Assembly: GCF_014193425.1 (NCBI RefSeq)
Contig: NZ_JACHZG010000001.1
Span: 496,001-560,000, forward strand
Reading direction: 5' to 3'
DNA from: Microlunatus antarcticus
Lineage (GTDB): Bacteria; Actinomycetota; Actinomycetes; Propionibacteriales; Propionibacteriaceae
DNA: 64,000 nt
Part shown: piece by piece, positions 2,375 through 19,892 of the stretch
Numbering within the stretch: the stretch's first letter is position 1
Layout of the letters: each line of letters begins with the position of its first letter
Translations under genes and position numbers: made by a program
The notes under the pieces: model-generated
What the model was told of the DNA's origin: nothing
Databases searched by the model: none
The model's input: the letters and a program-made list of their open reading frames with translations, nothing else

Positions 2375-3493
2375 TCAGTCGCCGATCTTGATCTTCGCCT
2401 TGGTGTCGGGCAGCTCCACGAACGTCTGCCCCGGGGCCATCCGGAGCGGCTCGCCGTTGGTGAGCGCGAAGCTGAACGGTTCCGCGACCCCGGCCTTGCG
2501 CCAGGTCCCGGTCACGTACCGGCCCCGGTTGAAGTAGAGGAACGTGCCCTTGGTGTCGATGACGTCGTGGAACGGCTCGTGGTGCTCGTAGTGCTGGTGC
2601 GCCTTGATCACCAGCACGTTGTCGGTCGAGACGCGCTTGCCGTCGGCCAGCACGTGCGGGCCCCAGGGCATGCTCCGCAGGTAGCGCTTGGACTTCTTGT
2701 CGTAGGTGTAGCCCATCAGGTAGCCGTCCCCCTTGTACGGGACCTGCAGCCTCGTGCCGTCCTTGCCCTTGAACTTCACCGTGCTCACCTCCTTGTCGCT
2801 GGACGCGATGGGGAAGTAGACGCGCGGCGGACCGTCCCGGAACCGCTTGGTCTGCTGCGCCAGGACCTTCGGATGGCAGGTGGTGGCGCGGTCGTAGTAG
2901 GTCTGGCCCTGGTACTGGTAGACCCGCGACTGGTCGGTCCCGTACGCGCCGGTGCCCTTCGTCGCGAGGTAGGACAGCATCGACTCGAGGTGCTTGTCGT
3001 ACTTCTTCACGTACTTGATCGTCCACTTCGCGGCGCCCGTGTTGCCGATGATCGCGTCCATCGGGCTGAGCAGCGGGACGTCGACGGGGCGGATCGAGCG
3101 GACCGGCTCCACCGTGTCGGGCATGTGCTTGTGGAACACCGGGACGAGGCGGGTCGAGCTGTAGCCGTCGGCGTCGAGGTAGCCCTCCAGCTGCACGAAG
3201 ACGATGTCGGCGTCGTTGATGCCCCGCTGCGGGTGCTCCTGGCGGTTGTCCGGGACCTTGACCGCCACGGCGGCGTGCCGGGCGTCCTTCTTGTCGTCGA
3301 GCAGCTCGCCCGTCAGCGGCCAGCGGGGCCGCGTGTCGACCGGGGCCGCCGGCGTGGTCGACGCCGCGGGCGTCGGAACCGGGGTCGGGACGTCCGCCGC
3401 GGGGGCGGGCGCCGGGGTCTTGTCCCGCGAGCAGGCGGCCAGCGCGGCGGCCGCCACTCCCAGCAGCGCCGTGCGGCGGCTGATCCGCGCCAT
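2375..3493 (-). CDS. DUF3048 family lipoprotein
   Basis: 372-residue exported lipoprotein of the DUF3048 family. The N-terminus has a twin-arginine-like signal (SRRTALLG) ending in a lipobox LAAC with Cys21 as the predicted lipid-modified residue, then a Pro/Ala/Thr-rich linker to about residue 50. The mature domain carries family motifs such as RPRWPLTGELL, GINDADIVFVQLEG, EPVRSIRPVDVPLL and GTFLYFNRGRYVTGTW. Family members are cell-surface proteins of unknown function. The ATG is preceded by GAGAGGGAAC. It lies 143 bases downstream of the SMR exporter gene on the same strand, probably with its own promoter. Confidence 0.85.
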   Translation of the reverse strand: MARISRRTALLGVAAAALAACSRDKTPAPAPAADVPTPVPTPAASTTPAAPVDTRPRWPLTGELLDDKKDARHAAVAVKVPDNRQEHPQRGINDADIVFVQLEGYLDADGYSSTRLVPVFHKHMPDTVEPVRSIRPVDVPLLSPMDAIIGNTGAAKWTIKYVKKYDKHLESMLSYLATKGTGAYGTDQSRVYQYQGQTYYDRATTCHPKVLAQQTKRFRDGPPRVYFPIASSDKEVSTVKFKGKDGTRLQVPYKGDGYLMGYTYDKKSKRYLRSMPWGPHVLADGKRVSTDNVLVIKAHQHYEHHEPFHDVIDTKGTFLYFNRGRYVTGTWRKAGVAEPFSFALTNGEPLRMAPGQTFVELPDTKAKIKIGD

Positions 3494-4075: not shown

Positions 4076-4540
4076 ATGAGCACGACGACCCCCACCCGGA
4101 GCACCCGCAGCGAGCTGCGGAGCGTCGCCGGCCTCGCCGACGGGCTGCGGCCCGCGGTCATGCGCCTCGCGCGCCGGCTCCGGCAGGTGCGGGCGGACGG
4201 GCTCGAGCTGACGGCCAGCCAGCTGTCGGCGATGGGCACCCTCGCGCGGGCCGACGACCAGCCGATCGGGACGCTCGCCGCCGCCGAGCGCGTGGCCGCC
4301 CCGTCGATGACGCGGGTCGTCAACGCGCTCCAGGAGCGCGGGCTCGTCGTCCGCACCCCGGACCCGACCGACCGGCGCCAGTCGCTGGTCTCCCTGACCA
4401 CGAGCGGACGCGAGCTCCTGCTGCTCAACCGCCGCCGCCGCTCCGAGTGGCTCGCCCAACGCATCGCCGAGCTCGACCCGGACGACAGAGAGGTGCTCCG
4501 CCGTGCGGTGGGCATCCTCGAGAGGATCAACGCCGCGTGA
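4076..4540 (+). CDS. MarR-family regulator of the adjacent MFS exporter
   Basis: 154-residue MarR-type winged-helix protein. The helix-turn-helix region reads IGTLAAAERVAAPSMTRVVN and is followed by a wing with PTDRRQSLVSLTTSG. The ATG at 4076 was preferred to an upstream in-frame start at 4040, which would overlap the operator. The stop codon overlaps the GTG of the MFS gene (GTGA), so regulator and transporter are one transcription unit. The usual arrangement is a drug-sensing repressor that controls itself and the exporter; here that follows from context and the palindromic operator, not from direct evidence of a ligand. Confidence 0.88.
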   Translation: MSTTTPTRSTRSELRSVAGLADGLRPAVMRLARRLRQVRADGLELTASQLSAMGTLARADDQPIGTLAAAERVAAPSMTRVVNALQERGLVVRTPDPTDRRQSLVSLTTSGRELLLLNRRRRSEWLAQRIAELDPDDREVLRRAVGILERINAA

Positions 4541-16274: not shown

Positions 16275-18115
<1,841 letters not shown>

Positions 18116-18121
18116 ACCCAG

Positions 18122-18162
18122 TGGGGATGCTTTGGCACCCGGTGGGTGCCAGATCATCCCCA
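18122..18162. repeat. Palindromic repeat, copy A
   Basis: Arms 18122-18140 and 18144-18162 (19 bp, two mismatches, three-base loop). The right arm, read on the minus strand, contains GGGGATGATCTGGCACC, identical to the core of copy B at 19178-19224. It lies just past the pdxH stop and includes the stop codon and last residues of the AbiEi-like gene. It can serve as terminator for pdxH. Confidence 0.75.
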
Positions 18163-19119
18163 TTCCCCTGCGGGGACGAGTCGGCAGCGGCGACAGCGAG
18201 TCGGCAGGCCGCTCCAGCCACGCTGGTGAAGAGCACGGGCGACCTTGGCCGCCACACGGCACGGCTGGCCGTGAAGGTCACCAGCGCCGAAGCGCAGGGT
18301 GAGCAAGCCGTCAAGGCTTGCCTCGTTGTCGCGGTCCATGTCGCGAAACCGCCCGAGCTCGGTGTGCCCGAGCCGTCCGTCGAGCTCGACCACGACGCCG
18401 AACTGCGTGTACCAGACGTCACGCACCGCCTTCTTGTCCCGCGAGGGCAGCTGCCGGCTGACCAGGGCACTCAGCCCGTGCGCTCGCTCGACGTCGCGCA
18501 GGTAGGTCATCTCCAGCGGAGACCGGACGCCCACCGCGACGTCGGCGAGGAGTCCCTCGAGAAGGTCGCGGCGCGGATGCCGTCTGCGACCGGCCAGCGT
18601 GCGTCGGAGGCGCTTCGCCGTCGTCCGACGGCGCTCCACGGCCACGGTCACCCAGCCGACGACGTCCTCCGGCCGAGCGGTGGTGCACAGGTCGAGCACG
18701 GTGTCCTCGACGGTGGTGCGGGGTGGCGCACCGATCGATCGGCCACGGGTGCCCGCGCGCTCGCGGACGAACTCGTAGCCGCGGCGCGGGGCGGGCCGCT
18801 GCGCGTGAGGTACCAGGACGATGATCCGATCCGGGTCTTCGTCGGCCAACCCGTGGAGCCGACCCGCGGCAAGGTCTCCTACCCGCGCGTCGTCACCGCC
18901 CAGCAGCGTGCCCACCCACGCGCGAGCCACGAAGGGCGGCTCGAGGTGGGCAGTGAAGAAGACCCCACGCTCCAGGCGCCGCCAATGGCCCTCGTCAAGC
19001 AGCCGTGCGACGACGCGAGGTGAGACCCCGTGGGCGCTGGCCTGCTCGCGCGTGATCACGCCGGCCTGGAGGTCGGCAAGCGGCTTGAGCGCTCGCAGCA
19101 CCTCGGCCGATGTCGTCAC
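18154..19119 (-). CDS. AbiEi-like winged-helix / DUF559 nuclease-fold fusion
   Basis: 321 residues. The N-terminal ~70 residues (LADLQAGVITREQASAHGVS, then a VARLLDEGHWRRLERGVFFT segment) match the winged-helix domain found at the start of AbiEi-type antitoxins. The middle is a helical region. The C-terminal ~110 residues look like a DUF559/Vsr-like PD-(D/E)XK nuclease fold: a conserved Glu in VRSPLEMTYL, then the Asp in VVVELDGRLGH, then FRDMDRDNEASLDGLLTLRF. Candidate catalytic residues are intact. No AbiEii-type toxin partner is adjacent. Bracketed by two copies of one palindrome, and its stop codon is inside copy A. Function unknown; DNA cleavage or regulation is inference. Confidence 0.75.
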   Translation of the reverse strand: MTTSAEVLRALKPLADLQAGVITREQASAHGVSPRVVARLLDEGHWRRLERGVFFTAHLEPPFVARAWVGTLLGGDDARVGDLAAGRLHGLADEDPDRIIVLVPHAQRPAPRRGYEFVRERAGTRGRSIGAPPRTTVEDTVLDLCTTARPEDVVGWVTVAVERRRTTAKRLRRTLAGRRRHPRRDLLEGLLADVAVGVRSPLEMTYLRDVERAHGLSALVSRQLPSRDKKAVRDVWYTQFGVVVELDGRLGHTELGRFRDMDRDNEASLDGLLTLRFGAGDLHGQPCRVAAKVARALHQRGWSGLPTRCRRCRLVPAGEWG

Positions 19120-19177
19120 CCGAAAAGCCTGAGGCGCACACGGCGGGGCTCACCCCTTCATCCACAGGGCAAAAGCA

Positions 19178-19224
19178 CAACGGGGATGATCTGGCACCTC
19201 ACAGGTGCCGGATCATCCCCGTTG
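19178..19224. repeat. Palindromic repeat, copy B
   Basis: Arms 19178-19199 and 19203-19224 (22 bp, one mismatch, loop CAC). The core GGGGATGATCTGGCACC is shared with copy A. It lies 11 bases past the sodA stop and 58 bases before the start of the AbiEi-like gene. It probably terminates sodA transcription. Confidence 0.8.
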
Positions 19225-19235
19225 TCGGGCTGAGG

Positions 19236-19850
19236 TCAGATCAGACCGGGGGTCTGCGCCTTCGCCTTGGCGAACCGCTCCTGGGCGTCGGCCCAGTTGA
19301 CGACGTTCCACCACGCCTTGGCGTAGTCGGCCTTGACGTTCTTGTACTGCAGGTAGAAGGCGTGCTCCCACATGTCGAGGAGGACGACCGGGATCTGCCC
19401 GAGCGGCAGGTTGGCCTGCTGGTCGTATAGCTGGTTGATGTTGAGCCGCTGGCCCAGCGAGTCCCAGACCAGCATCGACCAGCCGGAGCCCTGGATCGCG
19501 TTGGCGTTGGCCTCGAACTGCGCCCGGAAGCCGTCGAAGCTGCCGAAGAACTCGTCGATCGCCGCCGCGAGCTCGCCGGTCGGCTTGTCGCCGCCGTCCG
19601 GGGACATGTTCGGCCAGAAGACCGAGTGGTTGATGTGCCCGCCGAGGTGGAACGCGAGCGTCTTCTCGAGGCCGTTGATCGGGCCGAAGGCGTTCTTGTC
19701 GCGCGCGTCCGCGAGCTGGTCGAGGACCGTGTTGACGCCGGCCACGTAGGTGGCGTGGTGCTTGTCGTGGTGCAGCTGCATGATCTCGCCGGAGATGTGC
19801 GGCTCGAGCGCGCTGTAGTCGTACGGAAGGTCAGGAAGTGTGTACGTCAC
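19236..19850 (-). CDS. sodA: Superoxide dismutase, Mn/Fe type
   Basis: Converts superoxide to oxygen and hydrogen peroxide in the cytoplasm. 204 residues from the GTG at 19850 ([20 protein letters not shown]). Metal ligands are visible: His in [14 protein letters not shown], His in [10 protein letters not shown], and Asp and His in [13 protein letters not shown]. The fingerprint [20 protein letters not shown] and a nearby Gln suit manganese or cambialistic use, not resolved here. Two GTG codons are in tandem; the second lies six bases after a -10-like TACGGT (19862-19857), so I prefer it. Works with KatG, which removes the peroxide produced. Confidence 0.95.
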
Positions 19851-19892
19851 CACCCCACCGTACGAGGGTCCCTCCGACCGTCGCCGCCGGGG

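Follow-up and report, generated by a model that had tools for sequence, protein, structure and literature searches.

AbiEi-Vsr genes, which encode an AbiEi-type winged helix joined to a predicted Vsr/DUF559-type nuclease, commonly lie between paired copies of a private palindrome. In the palindrome types tested, only genomes with the matching gene also contain dispersed solo copies. This pattern suggests a kind of small mobile DNA system that has not been described before. The nuclease gene and its palindromes probably constitute a REP-like selfish unit, and we lean, somewhat more cautiously, towards a new class of mobile repeat, widespread in Actinomycetota, in which an AbiEi-fused Vsr-fold nuclease recognizes and propagates a private palindrome and which evolved independently of HUH transposases. 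The earlier note had suggested that this could be a unit not described as such; no description of an AbiEi/DUF559 gene-palindrome association was found in the open-access papers searched.

Within the window, the 64,000-nucleotide stretch of Microlunatus antarcticus DNA analysed here, the locus is composed as follows:

17468-18115, plus strand: pyridoxamine-5'-phosphate oxidase (PNPOx)-family gene, left neighbour of the insertion site (pdxH side); from gene annotation, and used to find empty sites
18120-18164, no strand assigned: left palindrome, at the downstream end of the nuclease gene and also at the 3' end of 17468-18115; from the core match and folding, with the design of the dispersed copies
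18154-19119, minus strand: gene for an AbiEi-type winged helix plus a predicted Vsr/DUF559-type PD-(D/E)XK nuclease; from Pfam, the AlphaFold2 model and invariant residues
19177-19225, no strand assigned: right palindrome, about 57 bp upstream of the nuclease gene's GTG and about 10 bp from the superoxide dismutase stop codon; from the core match and folding
19236-19853, minus strand: superoxide dismutase gene (sod), right neighbour of the insertion site; from gene annotation, and adjoining the left neighbour in congeners L177 and L181

The nuclease gene starts with GTG, encodes 321 aa and terminates at a stop codon (18154-18156) located inside the left palindrome. Both palindromes contain the core GGGGATGATCTGGCACC in one exact copy (18145-18161, minus strand; 19182-19198, plus strand), with 2 and 1 mismatches in the partner arms, and the window holds four matches to this core against 0.2 expected from shuffling. 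The two lie 1059 bp apart and, in register, share 79% identity; both fold as single strands far better than shuffled sequences (z about -4.5 and about -9.5); an Rfam search of the region gave no match. The PNPOx-family and superoxide dismutase genes converge on the insertion site as the immediate neighbours, and no toxin gene lies beside the nuclease gene. Three claims of the earlier note, namely two flanking palindromes with a common core, a stop codon within one of them and a gene lacking a toxin partner, are thus borne out.

Domain analysis of the window protein revealed a clear Pfam match to AbiEi_4 (1.2e-9), with the DUF559 match (0.028) falling under the Pfam cut-off by sequence. In the AlphaFold2 model (pLDDT 86), residues 3-195 are predicted to adopt the AbiEi antitoxin fold (6y8q, Z 12.8), and residues 199-302 resemble the DUF559-like structure 3hrl (Z 10.4), the EDxHD homing endonuclease I-Bth0305I (3r3p, Z 9.2) and Vsr (1cw0, Z 8.0). 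The model supports a Vsr-like nuclease domain at residues ~199-302 despite the weak DUF559 sequence score, consistent with the earlier proposal of a winged helix joined to a nuclease fold. Searches by sequence returned no NCBIfam family, weak AbiEi/AbiGI matches only in the PDB (protein profile) and no Y1_Tnp (HUH tyrosine transposase) match at E<=0.1, the predicted fold being AbiEi plus Vsr-like. Furthermore, E203, D234, E245, D247, R259, D260, R263, D264 and N265, which include an R-D-x-x-R-D-N stretch, are invariant in 23 relatives. The acidic residues, which the earlier note described as apparently intact, are conserved throughout this set, and the nuclease appears active on the strength of this conservation.

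The protein differs from its structural relatives in setting. Like the type IV toxin-antitoxin system AbiE, it has the AbiEi winged-helix fold, but it lacks an adjacent AbiEii nucleotidyltransferase toxin, carries an extra nuclease domain and is accompanied by dispersed palindromes. Unlike I-Bth0305I and Vsr, whose fold it shares, it does not reside in an intron or intein, and it apparently acts on a dispersed palindrome instead of a single conserved gene. The AbiEi family name and the PADLOC AbiEi matches of the window protein could indicate a toxin-antitoxin or defence module whose nuclease is held in check by transcribed hairpins or genomic palindromes, a nuclease with private repeats being reminiscent of RNA-antitoxin systems. 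Given the lack of a toxin partner, the genome-wide solo repeats and the housekeeping genes adjoining the gene in the window, we regard this reading as very unlikely.

We scanned for hairpins at homologues in congeners (16 of 20 genomes have one) and at 80 named loci across Actinomycetota. The scan gave 95 usable loci, some of which are close relatives at the same site and hence not all independent. Hairpins occurred upstream at 66 loci, downstream at 65 and on both sides at 47, compared with both sides in 1 of 64 control windows located 2 kb away; about half of the loci lacked two palindromes at the hairpin threshold used. The palindromes thus cluster around DUF559/AbiEi genes, a point that the earlier note had proposed to check. 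In 45 of the 47 two-sided loci, the similarity between left and right hairpins exceeded the 99th percentile of cross-locus pairs. Palindrome sequence varied from gene to gene, each gene having its own palindrome, present twice. There is good support for the nuclease gene and its palindromes being a cognate pair.

The M. antarcticus genome contains two more paralogues (L021, G000:C1:2353358-2354281; L022, G000:C8:9557-10471; 50% identical), each with its own palindromes, and solo copies like the L021 type lie elsewhere in that genome (L191, L194, L197-L199). At L024, two palindromes 1.2 kb apart (2998-3042 and 4231-4275) flank an unrelated gene whose start resembles glycerate kinase, so that a pair of flanking palindromes is not in itself peculiar to the nuclease gene.

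Covariation analysis of 35 copies from three genomes, with 500 shuffles and slid controls, revealed that the hairpin form is maintained: 93.9% of stem cells were paired, 12 of 20 stem pairs had changed on both sides, and compensatory change was seen in 97 cells versus 32 in shuffles, with covariation above all 500 shuffles and all slid controls. Palindromes at orthologous sites differed from each other about as much as random cross-genome pairs did (mean 7.9 versus 7.7-9.0 differences), which suggests turnover and does not amount to proof of concerted evolution. A universal loop tag was rejected, the loop being near-constant in one genome and variable in others. The 8-nt loop CGACTACG/CGTAGTCG is common to many unrelated stems (L048, L050, L057, L064, L079 and L081) without being universal, and recalls the GTAG tag of REPs.

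Genome searches with a covariance model of the window palindrome, covering the M. antarcticus genome and 19 congeners, showed this type to be abundant in only 4 of 20 genomes. It occupies about 24 places in the M. antarcticus genome; some of the weaker matches there are the palindrome types of the two other paralogues, and copy numbers may be slightly inflated because contigs C13 and C16 (L029, L030), which share at least 3994 identical bp surrounding a palindrome, are probably an assembly duplicate. With both strands counted, the congeners G004, G010 and G005 had 31-33 matches and the other 16 congeners 0-5. G004 and G010 carry a syntenic orthologue of the window gene (66 and 83% identical), and G005 has a nuclease gene flanked by palindromes with a nearly window-type stem.

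Three independent palindrome types followed the same distribution. The Microlunatus speluncae type was found at 14 places in its own genome and at none in 19 congeners, and the Dactylosporangium siamense type at 7 places in its own genome and at none in 8 genomes with other family members. The G006/G001 type was confined to these two genomes, the ones with that syntenic gene. The earlier note had likened the layout to REPs with an associated enzyme and had set against this a palindrome spread genome-wide as an ordinary terminator with no link to such genes; the likeness holds up, each gene having its own palindrome, with solo copies concentrated where the matching gene is present. This distribution also bears on whether another enzyme, such as a RAYT elsewhere in the genome, spreads the palindromes, with the nuclease gene as passenger or target. 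The classical link of REPs to HUH transposases (PMC3733652) lends that idea some plausibility, yet in each genome and for each orthologue the palindrome type tracks the AbiEi-Vsr gene, and we consider the idea very unlikely.

The M. speluncae repeat spans about 50 bp, has sharp borders and lies in unrelated flanking sequence. The two copies beside the gene are nearly complete, the right-hand copy having diverged at some outer bases. Among 70 solo copies, 54 have a facing stop codon no more than 150 bp away, 22 lie between convergent stops and none is inside an ORF. Placed mostly just after stop codons, the solo copies may also act as transcription ends. These positions, together with the compensatory change that preserves the stems and the unrelated hairpins often found at orthologous sites in relatives, would also be expected if the palindromes were ordinary bidirectional terminators at 3' gene ends, with the gene merely caught between two of them. 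A scan limited to U-tract terminators, GC-rich hairpins followed by a T run, detected none at either window palindrome. Moreover, terminators need no common sequence, whereas stems (and in one genome the loop too) are near-identical within a genome and absent in congeners. Matched pairs flank one gene family across families of Actinomycetota, in contrast to the windows 2 kb away, and the right-hand copy lies upstream of the nuclease gene. We therefore regard terminators alone as a distinctly unlikely explanation.

The same copies could instead be operators or regulon sites, those beside the gene autoregulatory, for a protein that is mainly a regulator or chromosome organizer and whose nuclease domain is secondary. 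The N-terminal two thirds resemble AbiEi, a DNA-binding antitoxin, winged-helix dimers typically target palindromes, and one palindrome precedes the start codon. But the other is at or past the stop codon, solo copies follow genes rather than occupy promoters, the nuclease-motif residues are invariant in the 23 relatives, and private, sharp-bordered copies look like spread sequence, not evolved operators; on balance, this role is unlikely.

Comparison with congeners provided evidence on movement. In L177 and L181, the pdxH-sod gap measures only ~20 bp and holds neither gene nor palindrome; an empty site, which the earlier note had suggested looking for in close relatives, is thus present in two congeners. 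The same gap in M. antarcticus (G000), G010 and G004 holds a palindrome-gene-palindrome block, the left copy being degraded in G004. This difference reflects either insertion in the G000/G010/G004 clade or clean loss. The nuclease gene is mostly syntenic in close relatives, and homologues of more distant congeners occupy other places; the sites shared among close relatives indicate that the gene itself moves rarely. When 11 solo sites of the M. antarcticus genome were compared with two congeners, most lacked a family palindrome there and often had another hairpin instead. Intergenic turnover between species hid the exact insertion borders, and neither a target-site duplication nor a recent gene copy at a new site was identified among these 11 sites and the gene loci. 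A plasmid search with the protein gave no match. A phage search gave one partial relative (MT835975.1:8455-9057; 43% identity, 60% query coverage), encoded in a 14 kb phage record from human faeces that lacks annotation. Carriage by plasmids or phages is therefore not the usual route.

Taking the nuclease gene and its palindromes as a REP-like unit, we infer that the nuclease spreads the palindromes. The winged-helix part would recognize the palindrome, either in duplex form or as an extruded hairpin, and cutting there or at similar sites would fall to the Vsr-like nuclease. Repair or strand transfer would then copy the short palindrome into new intergenic gaps, and occasionally the gene would be copied along with the palindromes on either side of it. 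The stem sequence would co-evolve with the specificity of the protein, giving each lineage its own palindrome type. Terminator use of individual copies would be compatible with such spread and may explain where copies are tolerated.

The system closely parallels REP-RAYT (PMC3116915, PMC3686654, PMC3733652). In both, a gene is flanked by copies of one palindrome, solo extragenic palindromes are dispersed mostly at 3' gene ends in numbers that depend on the cognate gene, the palindrome diversifies along with its enzyme, and the gene is often vertically inherited and rarely moves. For REPs, high abundance is known to depend on the cognate palindrome-flanked gene (PMC3686654), and the elements are extragenic and near 3' gene ends (PMC3733652). 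Here, unlike in REP-RAYT, the enzyme is an AbiEi-Vsr/DUF559 protein and not an HUH tyrosine transposase, and for this reason the system is not classed as REP-RAYT, though working like one. The palindrome is also longer and near-perfect (~45-50 bp), and window copies have no 5' GTAG or CGTC tag outside the stem: window and solo copies start with AACGGGG or similar, with no GTAG at the 5' foot, and GTAGTC appears only in the loops of some other types. The CGTC superfamily of REP-like palindromes has no dedicated enzyme known (PMC3733652), and one paper connects a Caulobacter DUF559 Vsr-like protein with DNA damage (PMC12907096).

Dispersal of palindromes by a Vsr-fold nuclease, if it occurs, would mean that REP elements can arise through a second enzyme unrelated to the first, and REP-like palindromes are common. 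Such a role would assign a real function to many actinobacterial genes now annotated as AbiEi antitoxin or DUF559, and would make available many natural pairs of protein and palindrome for learning the rules of recognition.
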